Below, piece after piece: positions 9,620 through 36,104 of a stretch of DNA of 37,681 bases. The notes under the pieces were generated by a model. It was not told where the DNA came from and ran no database searches. It worked only from the letters and a program-made list of their open reading frames with translations. The stretch covers positions 1-37,681 of IMG/VR virus record IMGVR_UViG_3300046369_000549. The stretch is one strand, 5' to 3'. The stretch is from a virus. Every line of letters begins with the position of its first letter. Within the stretch, counting starts at the first letter, position 1. The position numbers were made by a program, and so were the translations under genes.

Positions 9620-10312
9620 CTAGTTTTTATTCATTAGTTGTGCTTCAATAATTCTTTCTCGTAAGTCAACTGCTAACACTTGATGTGTACTTTCTGCAGG
9701 GTGACTTCCATCTAGTGCCTTGTCGCCAGCATCTAAAAGTTGTGTGTAATCTCGCAATAGTCTTATGTTATATATGTCTAAAAATTCAGGCGGGCATGTG
9801 TTGCCTACTGCAATGTTGAATACATTGTTTGTAAACTGTTTAGCATATGTGTTACCAAAGTTCATCCATACTGCATTCTCGTGCATTAAGTCAACTCCGT
9901 CCGGATCAGCAAATGCTCTAAATTTAAGCCATGCTTTAGATGCCTTTACTTTTGCTCGTGAATGAGACCCTGGAGAATGGTTAGCATGAAGGTAAAGTTC
10001 TTCACCCCATGTATCAGTAAAACATGCAGATCTTAATTTCCAAGTCCATGCAAAAATAACAGCGTCATCTGGAGTAATTGGATCGTAACCTAATTCTTTT
10101 AGCCTAGTTATACTGTAACCAATACGTTTGTTTGATGCCGCTGGCATTGATAAGTTTATTACTTTGCTTTTAAACATCTTAGCAAGTTTATTAGGGTATC
10201 CTTTTTTACTTGGACCTTTAGAGTAATCTACCTTACCAGTCGGATACGATATATCACTTAACCCATGGCCGTAGGTATTGCTACAGCCGCAGAAGATTAT
10301 TCTTTTAAACAC
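9620..10312 (-). CDS. SGNH/GDSL-type hydrolase-like protein (230 aa)
   Basis: Block I is [10 protein letters not shown] with nucleophile Ser11, and the C-terminal [10 protein letters not shown] gives Asp201/His204, as in SGNH hydrolases. The middle is variable. The start is a GTG at 10312, overlapping the end of hemA by 16 bp without a clear ribosome site, so translation is probably coupled. Like the SGNH gene at 2467-3057 it shares an operon with a radical SAM gene, the second time this pairing occurs in the window. The substrate is unknown. Confidence 0.7.
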
Positions 10313-11481
10313 TCAGCTACTGCCTTTACACATTCACTAATCATTGCATCAGTGTGCTTTGGTGTAGGAGCGAAACGTAGTCGTTCTTGTCCTACAGCCA
10401 CCGTTGGATAATTAATTGGTTGAACATAAATTCCATAATCATTTAGAAGTTTATCACTAATTGCTTTACATTTTACAGCATCACGTATCATTACAGGAAT
10501 AATATGTGTTGTTGTTGTTTCAGCAACTTCGACACCATTTGCTTCAAAGCCTTTTTTAAGACGCTTTGCTTGACGTTGGTGTTGTTCCCTAAGTTCATTG
10601 TGGTCTTTAAGATATTTTATACTAGCCAATGCTCCAGCACAAGTGACTGGAGACATTGACGTAGTAAAAATAAAGCCTGAAGCAACAGAGCGGACAGCAT
10701 CTATGATGACAGCATCCCCTGCTATATATCCGCCCTGTACTCCATAAGCCTTGCCTAACGTTCCGTTGATTATATCAACTCGATCTTCCCCTATCTGTTC
10801 GCAGATACCTGCGCCAGTGTTTCCGTACAGCCCAACGGCATGTACTTCGTCTATATAGGTCATCGCACCGTAACGTTCAGCTAAATCGCAAATGTCTTTG
10901 ATAAGTCCTACATCCCCATCCATGCTATACACGGATTCAAATACTATGCATGGAGTACCTGAACACTGTTTTAACTTATCTTCAAGATCCTCTATATCGT
11001 TGTGCTTCCAAACTAATTTGTCGGCACCACTGTGACGTATACCTTGTATAAGGCTTGCGTGATTCATGCTATCACTTAAAAACACAATGTCGGAAACGAT
11101 TTGTTTAAGAGAAACTAACGTCCACTCATTTGCTACATATGCAGACGTATAAAGTAAAGCTGACTCCTTGTTATGTAACTTAGCCAGCTCGTGTTCTAAT
11201 GCAACGTGATAGTGTGAAGTACCACCAATATTACGAGTACCACCACTGCCTGCACCAGTTTGATCTAGTGCAGTGTGCATTGCATCTATGACAACTTTGT
11301 TTTCCCCCATTCCAAGGTAATCATTGCTACACCAATTTACAATCTCTTTGATTGCATACTTACCGTACCAAATCGCTTTAGGAAACTTTCCGCGCTCTCT
11401 GAGAATATCATTGAACACACGGTACTTGCCTTCCTGTTTTAGATCGTTAATTTTATCTTGAAAAGGTTTTTTGGTTATCAT
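10297..11481 (-). CDS. hemA: 5-aminolevulinate synthase (394 aa)
   Basis: This is a PLP enzyme of the alpha-oxoamine synthase family that joins glycine and succinyl-CoA to make 5-aminolevulinate, the first step of heme synthesis in alphaproteobacteria (C4 pathway). Visible marks are [24 protein letters not shown] (residues 76-92), NHAS with His141, DEVHAVG (211-217) and TLGKAYG with PLP lysine 244. Length is normal for the family (about 400). AKB ligase and 8-amino-7-oxononanoate synthase are close relatives, but the [12 protein letters not shown] region favours ALAS. A late box GATAAATA ends five bases before the ATG and no ribosome site is seen, so a leaderless late message is predicted. 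The source is probably an alphaproteobacterial host. Confidence 0.88.
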
Positions 11482-14162: not shown

Positions 14163-14360
14163 TTAGTCTGTACTTAGTCCTGTTGGGCTATACTGTTCTC
14201 CGTTGTATCCTGGATAGGTATCATCTTCAACACCAAAGTTACAACTTGCAACAATAAACAAAAATGCTATTGAAGCATAGGTAGTGCGTTTGCTCCACAA
14301 GATGAAGCCGTCAAATGCAACTTCGGCTTGCTTTTGTGCATCTTCAGTTACCTTACTCAT
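14163..14360 (-). CDS. Small membrane protein resembling aa3-type cytochrome oxidase subunit IV (65 aa)
   Basis: The pattern AFDGFILWSKRTTYASIAFLFIV matches in order the bacterial aa3-oxidase subunit IV (COX4_pro_2) pattern, an amphipathic 'F-GFI-W' stretch before one membrane helix; the helix here is about residues 27-45. The C-terminus after the helix is polar and would face the periplasm. It is coupled to the pseudoazurin gene by ATGA. A blue copper electron carrier beside an oxidase-like subunit suggests a respiratory function. The resemblance is short, so any small membrane protein remains possible. Confidence 0.5.
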   Translation of the reverse strand: MSKVTEDAQKQAEVAFDGFILWSKRTTYASIAFLFIVASCNFGVEDDTYPGYNGEQYSPTGLSTD

Positions 14361-14788
14361 AGGTCAGCCAATAGTGCCTTTAGTTTCTTCTTTGACTTGC
14401 CACGTACCTTAGCGTCTTTGATAGCATCAACGCCTTCTTGTGTTAGTTCACCTACAACTACAATAGCAATCATTCCCATGCTCTTGTGTGGTGTACATTG
14501 GTACAAGTACACACCTGGTGTGTCAAATGTATATGTGTATTCTTTTGATAGTTTTGATTTCTTTGGTGAGTCCCAACCATCTGGCCCAGCAATGAATTCT
14601 ACATTGTGACCTTTTGATGTTGGCAACCATGTGATTGAATCTCCTACTTCGATAACTGAGATGTCTTCACTGTAAACCATTTTAGCGCCATCGTCACGCT
14701 TGTTTAGCATGTCGACGGAAATGTCTGCGGCAAATGCCGGGGTTGATAGTAGACCCATGAGGGCAACTGTAGTGAGTAATTTTTTCAT
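14357..14788 (-). CDS. Pseudoazurin-like blue copper protein (143 aa)
   Basis: A signal peptide (MKKLLTTVALMGLLSTPAFA, 20 residues) directs it to the periplasm. The mature cupredoxin has copper ligands His61 (KGHNVEFI), Cys98 and His101 (YQCTPHKSMGM) and Met106, with the spacing of pseudoazurin (C-x2-H-x4-M), and a C-terminal tail rich in Lys. Pseudoazurin carries electrons between cytochromes and oxidases or nitrite reductase. It heads a minus-strand operon with a subunit IV-like peptide and a 28-residue membrane peptide. The sigma70 promoter at 14849-14877 suggests early or middle expression. It is comparable in logic to plastocyanin in cyanophages. Confidence 0.9.
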   Translation of the reverse strand: MKKLLTTVALMGLLSTPAFAADISVDMLNKRDDGAKMVYSEDISVIEVGDSITWLPTSKGHNVEFIAGPDGWDSPKKSKLSKEYTYTFDTPGVYLYQCTPHKSMGMIAIVVVGELTQEGVDAIKDAKVRGKSKKKLKALLADL

Positions 14789-16139: not shown

Positions 16140-16187
16140 ATGCATTTTTCAAATACTCGTTATGCATATTGTGCATACCATCTTCGG

Positions 16188-16216
16188 TTGACATTTTACA
16201 AATAGTTTTGTATTAT
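16188..16216 (+). promoter_or_regulatory. Sigma70 promoter of the phosphate permease
   Basis: GGTTGACA (box 16188-16193), 17 bases, TATTAT (16211-16216). Its -10 overlaps the late box that follows, so the gene can be read by both classes of promoter. Confidence 0.7.
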
Positions 16217-16221
16217 AAATA
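16214..16221 (+). promoter_or_regulatory. Late promoter box TATAAATA overlapping a sigma70 -10
   Basis: Exact late consensus. The predicted start at 16227 falls at the foot of the first leader hairpin. Confidence 0.6.
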
Positions 16222-16225
16222 ATCA

Positions 16226-16293
16226 GTAGGCAACGTCGAGCCTACCTTATTATGTGAGCGACGGGGTAAAGCCGTCAAGCAGAGGAGAAACTA
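16226..16293 (+). promoter_or_regulatory. Structured leader of the phosphate permease, possible pseudoknot switch
   Basis: GTAGGC (16226-16231) and GCCTAC (16240-16245) form a hairpin whose loop holds CGTCG (16234-16238). That can pair with CGACG at 16259-16263, making an H-type pseudoknot, while the overlapping GACGG (16260-16264) can instead pair with CCGTC (16272-16276) just before the ribosome site AGAGGAG. The two pairings exclude each other, as in small pseudoknot riboswitches. No known class is recognised and the ligand is unknown. Confidence 0.5.
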
Positions 16294-17265
16294 ATGGACG
16301 CACTCACCTTATGGAGCCTAGTCGGGTTCCTGTTAGCCGCATACGCGGTTATTGCAAATGATTCAGTACAAACGCTCGGTACTTGGATGGCATCAAACAA
16401 TGAGCGATTCAACTACAAAGTATTATGGGGAGCCGCAAGTGCAGTGTTACTTGCAACCTTATGGTATGGTTGGACAGTAAATGGTGGAGACATCAGTTAC
16501 GGAAGACTAAACAAAATACCCTGGCAAGAGGTACAATGGTATCACGCCGCCGCACCAGCAATCCTAGTTGCACTAACGCGAATAGGTGTACCAGTGTCAA
16601 CATCGTTCTTGGTGTTATCAGTATTTGCTTCAACTTTTGTGTTGGAGAAAATGCTTATGAAATCGATTATGGGCTACGGTGTTGCGGCCGCATTTGCATA
16701 CTTTATATGGTTTGCAATACACAAGTACTTTGGACAATGGTATGACGAAACAAAACCTGTAGACGAAGGCAACAAACGGTTCTGGCGCATCGCCCAATGG
16801 GTAGCAACAGGCGGACTATGGTGGACTTGGTTGTCGCACGATATGGCTAACATAGCAGTGTTCCTTCCAAGAGTTATTCCAGTTGATCTAATGTTAATGA
16901 TCAGTGTAGTATTTGTTGCAGGCTTGTTCTTTATGTTTAGAGAAAAAGGCGGTCGCATACAGCAGATCGTTTTAGAGAAACACAACACACGATATGTTAG
17001 GTCAGCAACATTGATTGACTTGTTCTATTGGATGTGCTTGTACTTCTTTAAAGAGCTTAATGATATTCCTATGTCAACAACGTGGGTGTTCGTAGGCTTA
17101 CTTGCAGGTAGAGAACTAGCAATGGCTACTTACTTTGGTAAGCAAAAAACAAAGTCTATCTTTCCACTTGTGGCAAAAGACTTTGGTAAGATGATGGTAG
17201 GGTTAGGTGCATCAGTTGCACTGGTACTTGCCATACACTATGTAATCCTACCAAACGGATTATAA
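16294..17265 (+). CDS. PiT-like inorganic phosphate permease (323 aa)
   Basis: The protein has about nine or ten hydrophobic segments. The N-terminal half carries ANDSVQTLGTWMAS, like the ANDVANAFGT signature of PiT permeases, and GVPVSTSFLVLS. The C-terminal half carries a matching ELNDIPMSTTWVFVGLLAG, so the inverted-repeat layout of the family is visible. PiT proteins import phosphate with a cation. The length is shorter than typical PiT (about 400-500). Two promoter types and a structured leader precede the gene, a terminator follows, and PRPP synthetase is next. Phosphate is inferred from family; another anion is possible. Confidence 0.75.
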   Translation: MDALTLWSLVGFLLAAYAVIANDSVQTLGTWMASNNERFNYKVLWGAASAVLLATLWYGWTVNGGDISYGRLNKIPWQEVQWYHAAAPAILVALTRIGVPVSTSFLVLSVFASTFVLEKMLMKSIMGYGVAAAFAYFIWFAIHKYFGQWYDETKPVDEGNKRFWRIAQWVATGGLWWTWLSHDMANIAVFLPRVIPVDLMLMISVVFVAGLFFMFREKGGRIQQIVLEKHNTRYVRSATLIDLFYWMCLYFFKELNDIPMSTTWVFVGLLAGRELAMATYFGKQKTKSIFPLVAKDFGKMMVGLGASVALVLAIHYVILPNGL

Positions 17266-17372: not shown

Positions 17373-18332
17373 TTGAAAATGAAAATAATAACAGGAAATG
17401 CTAATCCTCAATTAGCGCAAGAGATTGCCGAGCATTGCTTCGCAACTCTAGTTCCAGCAACAGTATCAACTTTTGCTGATGGCGAGTCGAGTGTAGAGTT
17501 TAATGAAAACATACGTGGCGAAGATGTGTTTATTGTGCAGAGTACAGCAACTCCTGTTAATGACAGTTTAATGGAACTGTTGATTATGATTGATGCGGCA
17601 CGTAGATCAAGTGCAAGTCGTATCACAGCAGTTATTCCTTACTTTGGTTACGCAAGACAAGATCGTAAGAGTGCAAGTCGTACTCCTATTACAGCAAAGT
17701 TGGTTGCTAATTTGTTGGTAACAGCAGGTGCAGATAGAATTCTTACAATGGATCTACACGCAGGACAGATACAGGGTTTCTTTGACATCCCAGTGGATGA
17801 TTTAACAAGCCGTGTAGTGTTTGCTAAAGACATTAGACGTTCAATTGGGATTATTGATGACCCAGATGTTGAGCAACAAGGTACAGTGTTTGTATCACCA
17901 GATGCAGGTGGCGCAGTTCGTGCTAGAAAGTTTGCTGATATGTTTAATGGCGACATTGCTATTGTTGACAAGATGCGTCCTGAAGCAGGCAAGAGCGAAG
18001 TTATGAACTTGATCGGCGATGTTGAAGGTAAACACGCCATTCTAGTTGATGACATTATTGATAGCGGAGGTACATTGTGTAAAGCCGCAGAAGCAATTAT
18101 GAAAGCAGGTGCTCTTTCAGTTCGTGCATATATTACACACGGAGTACTGTCAGGCGAAGCATGTCAAAAAGTTGAGAAGAGTGTTCTAGATGAATTAGTA
18201 GTAACTGATTCAATTGCCGATCGCTGTCCTAAGAATTGCAAAAAGACACGACAGGTTAGTGTCGCGCCTTTGTTTGGTGAAGCAATTAGACGAGTTACAA
18301 ACGAAGAGTCTGTGTCTAGTCTATTTGTTTAA
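17373..18332 (+). CDS. prs: Ribose-phosphate pyrophosphokinase (PRPP synthetase, 319 aa)
   Basis: This enzyme makes PRPP from ribose 5-phosphate and ATP for nucleotide synthesis. Visible marks are FADGE with ENIRG, GYARQDRKS, the catalytic loop region, DLHAGQIQGFF (divalent cation/ATP region) and the PRPP-binding DDIIDSGGTL. Length is normal. The TTG at 17373 has AGAAGGGA seven bases upstream; an ATG two codons later would give the usual MKIITGN start, so either is possible. Phage prs genes are known in large T4-like phages. The gene fits with ribonucleotide reductase and phosphate uptake. Its end overlaps the convergent lipase gene by 17 bp. Confidence 0.92.
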   Translation: MKMKIITGNANPQLAQEIAEHCFATLVPATVSTFADGESSVEFNENIRGEDVFIVQSTATPVNDSLMELLIMIDAARRSSASRITAVIPYFGYARQDRKSASRTPITAKLVANLLVTAGADRILTMDLHAGQIQGFFDIPVDDLTSRVVFAKDIRRSIGIIDDPDVEQQGTVFVSPDAGGAVRARKFADMFNGDIAIVDKMRPEAGKSEVMNLIGDVEGKHAILVDDIIDSGGTLCKAAEAIMKAGALSVRAYITHGVLSGEACQKVEKSVLDELVVTDSIADRCPKNCKKTRQVSVAPLFGEAIRRVTNEESVSSLFV

Positions 18333-34332: not shown

Positions 34333-34569
34333 ATGATGTGGGTCGACTACAATATTGACCAAATAGGTGAAAACTTCAAAGTCAAAGGAGACTATGAAGG
34401 AGAAGTAATGGGTGTTTGTAGAGATGGCACACCTAGAGACCATTGGTTGTATAAACCAGGCGATGTTTTTGTTGTTAACGAACACGGTTGGTTAGTTAAA
34501 ACAGACGAAGTAAGTGCTTTAATGCTAAAACACGAAAGTAATAAAAATGAACGTAAACAAGGGCGATAA
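34333..34569 (+). CDS. Small hypothetical (78 aa)
   Basis: The ATG at 34333 is chosen because AAGGAG lies nine bases upstream; another ATG directly after it (34324) would be too close. The protein has beta-like segments (NFKVKGDYEGEVMGVCRDGT, PGDVFVVNEHGWLV). No family is recognised. It overlaps the next gene by 23 bp. Confidence 0.7.
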   Translation: MMWVDYNIDQIGENFKVKGDYEGEVMGVCRDGTPRDHWLYKPGDVFVVNEHGWLVKTDEVSALMLKHESNKNERKQGR

Positions 34570-34846
34570 AGCAATAATTGTTTTTTCAATTAATCCTAGT
34601 AATATAGGACGCATTGTTAACGTATCAGAATACATTGGCAAGTTTGAGCAAAACGAACAGTTCGAAGCATTTGGTATGAAGTGTCATTGTGCTGTTCACG
34701 ATCATTACTGGTGGATTGAAGGTGACGACATTGATATACAACTTGGACCAAGTCCTAAAGCATATATTGCTGACAGTTGGTTGCGAAAAATACCAACTAC
34801 TAAAAAGAGCAAAAAACTACAAAAAGAACTTGACATTCTAGCATAA
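34547..34846 (+). CDS. Small hypothetical (99 aa)
   Basis: The sequence has a beta-rich N-terminus (NKGDKAIIVFSINPSNIGRI) and His/Trp-rich middle (MKCHCAVHDHYWWIEGDDID) that could bind a metal. A basic tail ends the protein. The start lies inside the previous gene. No family is recognised. Confidence 0.7.
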   Translation: MNVNKGDKAIIVFSINPSNIGRIVNVSEYIGKFEQNEQFEAFGMKCHCAVHDHYWWIEGDDIDIQLGPSPKAYIADSWLRKIPTTKKSKKLQKELDILA

Positions 34847-34852
34847 GAGTGT

Positions 34853-34860
34853 TATAAATA
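34853..34860 (+). promoter_or_regulatory. Late promoter box TATAAATA of the tmRNA gene
   Basis: Exact consensus. The predicted start at 34866 fits the 5' end of the acceptor piece. Confidence 0.65.
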
Positions 34861-34865
34861 TACTC

Positions 34866-35150
34866 GTAACGTTGAAGCAATTCAAACGCTATACAGGACC
34901 CGGGGGCGGTACCCGGCGACTCCACCAAAAATACATTCTGCTTACTGTATAGCAGAAGCAACAGGCTGATAAACTGGGAATGTATTTTTGATGGGGTCGA
35001 AATAGGATCGACTGGTAGTTAATAGGAGAGTGGAGTTGCCCGGATGTAAGCTCGGTTAACGCGAACAAACTTAATAATTGCAAACGCAAATTATTCATTA
35101 GCGGCTTAGGCTGTTACGAGGTAGTTAGGCCTTGTTACCAAACATAGCAT
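34866..35150 (+). ncRNA. ssrA: Circularly permuted two-piece tmRNA
   Basis: The acceptor piece comes first: T-stem CCGGG/CCCGG, then CGACTCC and ACCA ending at 34927. A spacer (34928-34992) follows, whose ends AAAATACATTC and GAATGTATTTTT continue the stem. The coding piece starts at 34993 with GGGGTCG, pairing with CGACTCC, and GGATCGACTGG typical of alphaproteobacterial tmRNA. The tag frame at 35080-35109 reads ANANYSLAA and TAG, similar in ending to known tags (LAA). The RNA would free stalled ribosomes and tag proteins for decay. A late box precedes it and a terminator follows; the exact 3' end is estimated. Confidence 0.9.
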
Positions 35151-35153
35151 TAA

Positions 35154-35185
35154 AGAGTGTTGTTTTTTAGCAACACTCTTTTTTT
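35154..35185 (+). terminator. Terminator of the tmRNA gene
   Basis: AGAGTGTTG (35154-35162) pairs perfectly with CAACACTCT (35171-35179), followed by Ts to 35185. Confidence 0.85.
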
Positions 35186-35231
35186 ATACCTGCTCGTTTT
35201 TGCACTAAAAGAGTGCGATAATGATAACTAA

Positions 35232-35303: not shown

Positions 35304-36104
35304 ATGCGTATTCTCGCGACAGCATTTGTGGCCGCAATGGCCGCAACAACAGCAATGGCTGATACACTAATAGTTAGTGAAGCACCTGCGCCAATCCTAA
35401 GTGGTGAAGTTTCTTTAGACTTCGCTGAAAAGGCAAACGAAAACTATGGCGGCACAATGGGTGTCGAACTAGATATCAATGCAGGAGAAATTGCAACTGT
35501 TGATTTAGGTTTTAAAGCAACAGACGGCAATGCTCTAACATTAGACACATGGACAGTAGGTACAGAAGTTAATGGTTTAGGTCTTGCATTTGGTGATGAC
35601 AATGGCGTTATGCCAGAAGCTGAAAAGTCAGCATATAGCACACTAGCAACACCGGCAATGACTGAATCATTAGCACTATCTATAGGCGATGCAACAGTTG
35701 CAATCGGACTAACTGATTGGACCGCAGATGTGTCTGATCTAAGCAACGTACAAGGTGCATATAGTTTTAATATGAATATGATAGATGTTACTGCTATGCT
35801 AGACTATAATTTAGATTCAGAAAATACTGTACTAGGTGCAGAAGTTGAAGGTTTAGATTTAGGTATGGTTGCACTTGGTGGCGTAATGACATATGACACT
35901 GATGCAGAATCAATTGGCTACGAAGGTAATGCAAATGTTAACGGTATTACAGCGTATGTCAACGGTGACGATGCAAATAAACTACAGCATGTAGGTGCTG
36001 AAGTTGAAAGAACATTTGCCGAAGCTACATGGACAGCTGGCGTCAACTATGATACTGATGCAGAAGAATTTGCACCAACAGCCGGTGTAAGTTTTAACTT
36101 CTAA
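35304..36104 (+). CDS. Outer-membrane beta-barrel (porin-like) protein (266 aa)
   Basis: A signal peptide (MRILATAFVAAMAATTAMA) precedes a mature protein of repeated alternating strands, Asp/Gly/Thr-rich with short turns, ending in VSFNF with a C-terminal Phe as the BAM complex prefers. Length suits about 12-14 strands. Phage-encoded porins are known in lambdoid phages and can block adsorption of other phages; here exclusion or nutrient entry is inference. AAAGGAAATAACA precedes the ATG. A strong terminator follows, so it is a separate unit. Confidence 0.8.
   Translation: MRILATAFVAAMAATTAMADTLIVSEAPAPILSGEVSLDFAEKANENYGGTMGVELDINAGEIATVDLGFKATDGNALTLDTWTVGTEVNGLGLAFGDDNGVMPEAEKSAYSTLATPAMTESLALSIGDATVAIGLTDWTADVSDLSNVQGAYSFNMNMIDVTAMLDYNLDSENTVLGAEVEGLDLGMVALGGVMTYDTDAESIGYEGNANVNGITAYVNGDDANKLQHVGAEVERTFAEATWTAGVNYDTDAEEFAPTAGVSFNF

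Follow-up and report, generated by a model that had tools for sequence, protein, structure and literature searches.

The window, i.e. the whole stretch of DNA that we analysed, is a complete entry of the IMG/VR collection, a linear virus record of 37,681 bp. On its plus strand, a TTGACA hexamer at 34830-34835 lies inside the last codons of an ORF (34547-34846) and is followed, 17 nt further on, by TATAAATA at 34853-34860, a box of the T4-late type. We read the two as the -35 and -10 elements of a promoter from which transcription should start around 34865-34866. The -35 element is found at the same place in viral relatives whose upstream sequence and spacers are unrelated. The acceptor piece, which is the 3' part of a tRNA-like domain, spans 34866-34927 in the alignments to RF04321 and RF01849, its first base being the presumed mature 5' end. 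It contains the T-arm stem (34900-34904 with 34912-34916) and one strand of the acceptor stem (34917-34923), and it ends with an encoded CCA (34925-34927). The intervening spacer of 65 nt (34928-34992) carries no gene in this copy and folds on an 11-bp processing stem (34928-34938 with 34978-34988). The coding, mRNA-like piece (34993-35151, the latter position being the presumed mature 3' end) begins with GGGG. It includes the second strand of the acceptor stem (34993-34999), the core GAAATAGGATCGAC, a segment at 35035-35039 that forms a helix with 34866-34870, and a tag frame at 35080-35106 that encodes ANANYSLAA and is closed by a TAG at 35107-35109. The two strands of the acceptor stem bring together G34995 and U34921, i.e. 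the G3-U70 wobble that gives tRNA and tmRNA their alanine identity. An intrinsic terminator closes the locus (35152-35187), with a hairpin at 35152-35181 made of a 13-pair stem and a 4-nt loop, followed by a T run. In the relative L060 a different hairpin and T run replaces it at the same place.

Judged by its sequence, this locus is a phage-encoded, permuted, two-piece tmRNA gene of the alpha type. Such a gene had been placed at 34853-35185 in a preliminary description of this DNA, which called for Infernal with the alphaproteobacterial model as a check, and the covariance models confirm it. Using cmscan and Rfam, we found a match to alpha_tmRNA (RF01849) at 34826-35182 on the plus strand (98.6 bits, cut-off 50) and one to tmRNA_permuted (RF04321) at 34866-35109 (102.9 bits, cut-off 47). 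Both scores are about twice the cut-off, and no other Rfam family is found in the window, even at E = 0.5. The acceptor and coding pieces, the spacer stem, the tag frame and the terminator are readable as had been claimed. The order of acceptor piece, spacer and coding piece is that of alpha-type permuted tmRNAs, the tRNA-like domain has its acceptor stem, T-arm and G3-U70 pair, and the tag frame joins an alanine resume codon to a degron ending in AA. ARAGORN makes no call on the window copy and calls most of its viral relatives. One of these, L371, is called as a permuted tmRNA with the same tag ANANYSLAA, and its mature parts are 96.6% identical to those of the window.

Covariation speaks for the same fold. 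We aligned 36 distinct viral homologues over 37 predicted pairs and found 97.4% of the cells to be paired, with changes on both sides in 23 of the 37 pairs. Cells changed on both sides number 213, against 59.4 +/- 7.9 in shuffles, and none of 500 shuffles reaches the observed values. When the structure is slid along the alignment the paired share drops to 36-42%. Covariation is seen in the T-arm, in the helix between 34866-34870 and 35035-35039 and in the spacer stem. Letters imposed by the search motif, which cover part of the acceptor stem and leave the T-arm free, are invariant by construction and were excluded as evidence.

The gene belongs to a large set, contrary to the initial view that tmRNA genes are rare in phages. 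One motif family matches at least 119 IMG/VR contigs at the alpha-type core, at least 120 contigs with spacers of 66-96 nt and 86 contigs with spacers of 128-158 nt, and 53 two-piece phage tmRNAs had already been counted (PMC9004378). Among the matches listed, four contigs agree with the window at every position over 513 nt. When the locus was compared by BLASTN with 50,697 phage records, only 35-nt matches in the conserved core were obtained, hence there is no close isolate by DNA. The window tmRNA adds to the two-piece tmRNAs already published for marine phages. As in Methylophilales phage Melnitz, Pelagibacter phage Mosig and pelagimyophage contigs (PMC9004378), a permuted alpha-type tmRNA is found in a large marine phage, a promoter lies close upstream and no evidence of host-like integration is reported. 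For Melnitz, the authors inferred an early promoter and early expression and linked the tmRNA to a glutamine riboswitch (PMC9004378). The window differs from it by a hybrid early/late promoter, by having no riboswitch match and by the distance to any isolate. Pelagibacter phage HTVC008M also carries a permuted tmRNA (90.6 bits, KC465899.1 145161-145370, L170:47877-48086), which is unannotated in the record table and lies a few hundred bases upstream of the late-transcription factor gene.

The promoter turned out to be different from what had been proposed. The exact late box TATAAATA is indeed present, but the idea of an own late promoter does not hold as such, because the box is the -10 half of TTGACA-N17-TATAAATA at 34830-34860, with a perfect TTGACA. 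The box occurs four times in the window for 3.8 expected. Hence, alone it proves nothing and its meaning comes from its position and from the TTGACA partner. The remaining consensus promoters of the window have TATAAT at their end. Over a set of 120 viral sequences (1.06 Mb), TTGACA-N16-18-TA sites have TATAAATA in 61 of 70 cases when they lie at tmRNA genes, against one of 298 elsewhere, where TATAAT is found in 26. Seen from the box, TTGAC lies 16-18 nt away at 49 of 57 tmRNA boxes and at 6 of 121 other boxes of the same contigs, and a second, later sample gave 69 of 98 against 12 of 222. Without conditioning on the box, both elements are found at 50 of 91 non-redundant loci, and at 39 of 91 and 18 of 52 loci in later sets; all these promoter counts come from related loci and are not phylogenetically independent. 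Yet, common descent in its simple form does not account for the conserved promoter, since the 17-nt spacers between -35 and -10 have a mean identity of only 37% and loci such as the window, L060 and L014 have different sequences upstream. In some relatives there is just a sigma70-like or just a late-like box, and L027, L040 and L057 are examples of a late-like box without TTGACA. In this phage NATAAATA does mark the regions upstream of genes, as it lies at most 120 nt upstream of an ORF start at 17 of 24 sites, against a background of about 10%.

A T4-type late promoter has its box upstream of the transcript, as TATAAATA is here, and has no conserved -35, whereas at this locus TTGAC is conserved at 16-18 nt. 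The best reading of TTGACA-N17-TATAAATA is therefore that of a combined sigma70/T4-late promoter, which would allow expression through infection. Such a hybrid predicts both early and late expression of the tmRNA, early expression being at least as likely as late. For T4-like phages lacking MotA, early promoters that overlap with late ones have been proposed (PMC2984593), and genes of the T4-like phages RB49 and S-PM2 have both an early and a late promoter, as we propose here. Unlike in those phages, the two elements share one -10 box at the tmRNA, and many phages have this arrangement at the same RNA gene. At 16180-16294 of the window, upstream of a permease-like gene, a TTGACA-N17-TATTAT overlaps TATAAATA; an untranslated stretch rich in hairpins, for which Rfam gives no match, comes after it.

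How close is this gene to those of the hosts? It shares with alphaproteobacterial ssrA (RF01849; Rhodobacteraceae, SAR11 and Caulobacter type) the permuted order, the two pieces, the T-arm sequence, the GGATCGAC core, the alanine resume codon and a tag ending in AA. It differs from host ssrA by its longer and exchangeable spacer, its 9-aa tag, its separate clade and its lower score, since host alphaproteobacterial tmRNAs reach 143-322 bits on RF01849 against 98.6 for the window. We built a tree of 142 sequences, with about 146 columns kept, including 57 alphaproteobacterial host genes (Rhodobacteraceae, SAR11 and others). It has a single viral/host change, on a branch of length 0.53 with support 100/100, to be read with the possible bias that the hosts were sampled with a looser motif than the viruses. 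The sampled viral permuted tmRNAs thus appear, with full branch support, as one lineage apart from the 57 host genes. The window gene does not nest within the sampled host ssrA genes and, given this single viral lineage, is no recent copy of any of them. The two-piece form had been taken to mark an alphaproteobacterial source, which holds for the ancient type of the molecule and not for a fresh copy of a host gene. As tags, Rhodobacteraceae mostly have ANDNRAPVALAA and SAR11 mostly ANDNRLALAA, whereas viral tags are more varied, with 136 distinct ones among 300 loci. The variation extends to the ANDN motif, which is kept in the tags of hosts (199 of 300 viral loci against 72 of 79 host genes). 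ANANYSLAA is also found in L371 and L322. As far as the searched literature shows, a separate viral tmRNA lineage appears to be new.

Host spacers are short, with 22-26 nt in Rhodobacteraceae, 4-21 nt in SAR11 and at most 57 nt in other alphaproteobacteria. In the length ranges that we searched, viral ones have up to 158 nt. We compared 252 distinct viral precursors and found 137 pairs whose mature parts are at least 93% identical; in 77 of these the spacers are unrelated or of very different length. Some of these have mature sequences that are 100% identical, such as L336 and L423, with spacers of 72 and 130 nt. Conversely, 106 pairs have spacers shared at 85% or above and mature parts less than 75% identical. 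The window itself takes part in this pattern. Its spacer is almost exactly that of L014, and L371, with a mature RNA about 96.5% identical to that of the window, has a spacer of 150 nt holding a 41-codon gene. L121 encodes nearly the same small protein; its mature tmRNA and that of the window are only 53% identical. L330 and L286 are another pair in which spacer and mature parts have differing histories. The spacer is modular, being exchanged independently of the mature tmRNA, which appears to be a new result.

Many of the long spacers contain what look like small genes. An ATG frame of at least 30 codons starts within the spacer in 63 of the 86 long ones, a few of these 63 starting late and perhaps by chance. 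The ORFs have 30-50 codons and fall into ten families with at least two members; examples in spacers of 128-158 nt are L369, L370, L371, L357, L401, L361, L390 and L121. Values of pN/pS are between 0.07 and 0.39 in seven families and 0.52 in an eighth, the latter from a single pair, and families beyond these eight are single sequences in pN/pS terms. Among 40 distinct spacers whose ATG comes early, 29 have a Shine-Dalgarno motif ahead of the frame; in shuffled leaders the share is 8%. Low pN/pS and the excess of Shine-Dalgarno motifs both disfavour the view that these ORFs are chance frames. Hence, small spacer genes seem to be under purifying selection in many relatives, which also appears to be new. 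Their products are unfamiliar, as nine of ten representatives have no PHROG match, none reaches the Pfam cut-off and no homing-endonuclease match is found among the spacer ORFs. The Shine-Dalgarno is mostly paired in the predicted fold in 21 of the 29 spacers, in many of them within the processing stem, and the largest family, with 20 contigs, uses as its stop codon the TAG in the GAAATAG of the tmRNA itself. We infer a possible competition, on one transcript, between translating the small gene and cutting out the tmRNA pieces.

These observations lead us to lean, if only slightly, towards the view that viral tmRNA genes are an exchangeable slot for small genes. The spacer would be swapped as a unit while the mature RNA stays constant, and in many phages it would hold a gene of 30-50 codons, with a ribosome-binding site often in the processing stem and a stop sometimes inside the tmRNA. 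One transcript, often under the combined early/late promoter, might then yield either the tmRNA or the small protein, and the 65-nt spacer of the window would be an empty slot. Some tmRNA genes contain group I introns, part of them with homing-endonuclease genes (see the tmRNA database overview, PMC11915505), so that a removed transcript segment can carry a gene, as in the viral relatives. Unlike these introns, the viral segment is the normal spacer of a permuted gene. If protein-coding, the swappable spacer would be a gene-within-RNA-gene arrangement absent from the searched papers, and a source of small phage proteins overlooked by annotation. To the extent of these papers, the hybrid promoter and the exchanged, sometimes gene-bearing spacer appear new, like the viral lineage.

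Trans-translation is a basic quality-control system, of which some phages have their own copy. We think it probable that the phage has here a working two-piece tmRNA gene that belongs to a virus-specific lineage, is driven by a dual promoter and relies on host partners. Host RNA polymerase with sigma70 would transcribe it early and phage late machinery of the gp55 type later, so that it would be made throughout infection. The precursor is predicted to fold with the halves of the tRNA-like domain joined by the 65-nt spacer stem, and host tRNA-processing enzymes would excise the spacer, which would be absent from the mature RNA and passes between phages like a cassette, with a small gene in some relatives. 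Host alanyl-tRNA synthetase would charge the RNA via G3-U70 and host SmpB would bring it to ribosomes stalled on cut or degraded mRNA. ANANYSLAA would then be added and the ribosome freed, the LAA end flagging the broken protein for host proteases. Recycling of ribosomes late in infection, as first proposed for this gene, is plausible under such a scheme. The lineage's own promoter type and set of tags suggest a selected role in infection instead of an accidental capture, and the scheme predicts that the tmRNA is made during the whole cycle and needs the SmpB of the host.

Other roles deserve consideration. The viral tmRNA could mainly be a decoy that competes with host trans-translation or blunts it, for example because it takes up SmpB or because its tag is poorly recognised by the adaptors of the host, and phage proteins would be spared. 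The variation of viral tags at ANDN goes in this direction, and the tag-less form of phage DS6A inhibits the endogenous tmRNA in E. coli (PMC11915505). Yet, the window gene differs from that form by an intact tag frame ending in LAA, a G3-U70 pair and a CCA, and we regard a decoy as unlikely. The promoter could instead be purely late, with TATAAATA as a T4-type late promoter and TTGACA as a coincidence. This has on its side the exact match to the T4 late consensus, the presence of T4-type late boxes in this phage and the few relatives with a late-like box and no TTGACA. The frequency of the TTGAC partner at tmRNA boxes in both samples, against its scarcity at other boxes, disfavours it and leaves it a rather small chance.

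Selection might also act mostly on the small genes of the spacer, the tmRNA halves being kept as a conserved frame for docking and processing. Exchange of spacers and purifying selection on their genes are what one would expect from this. But the window and many relatives have no gene in the spacer and still keep the pairs of the mature parts and the tags, so that we give this idea slightly less credence still. Finally, prophage exchange has been suggested as the origin of the Melnitz copy (PMC9004378), and by analogy the window gene could be a host gene taken by faulty excision and now decaying. Strong covariation, a conserved promoter and the long, fully supported branch to the host genes make this reading highly improbable.

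A record of 61 kb (G151, L090) is 99.8-100% identical to the window where the two overlap and adds 40 kb, with genes for a GroEL-like protein, an endolysin, a 2OG-Fe(II) oxygenase and a DNA ligase. A T4-type late promoter goes with phage-encoded gp55, gp33 and gp45. We did not find gp23 and gp55 in the window or in the 61-kb record, both of which are partial; they are found in other viral records that bear the tmRNA, 3 of 39 such records having a gp55 homologue. SmpB was not found in 25 viral records, many of them fragments, with a search that was positive in 10 of 14 control genomes. Hence, the phages presumably use the SmpB of the host. As for the identity of this host, searches for NrdA and NrdB leave the phage unplaced. 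The best matches of the phosphate-permease-like protein (16294-17262) are three copies, 80-93% identical to it, in one Rhodobacteraceae bin, Water_Bin34 (G001, L130-L137), which would point to a host of this family. The same bin has eight alpha_tmRNA matches, one host-like (284 bits) and seven weaker and phage-like, and the latter indicate that it probably contains phage contigs; a Rhodobacteraceae host is thus no more than a candidate. Following the tmRNA, at 35304-36104, the window encodes a protein of 266 aa whose start resembles a signal peptide and which, by eye, looks like a porin; it has no match in Pfam, PHROG or phage records. Several further genes of the window are of host type. Pfam identifies an aminotransferase resembling aminolevulinate synthase (10297-11481) and an azurin-type copper protein (14357-14788), and they are accompanied by the phosphate-permease-like gene (16294-17265) and by what looks, by eye, like a ribose-phosphate pyrophosphokinase (17373-18332).
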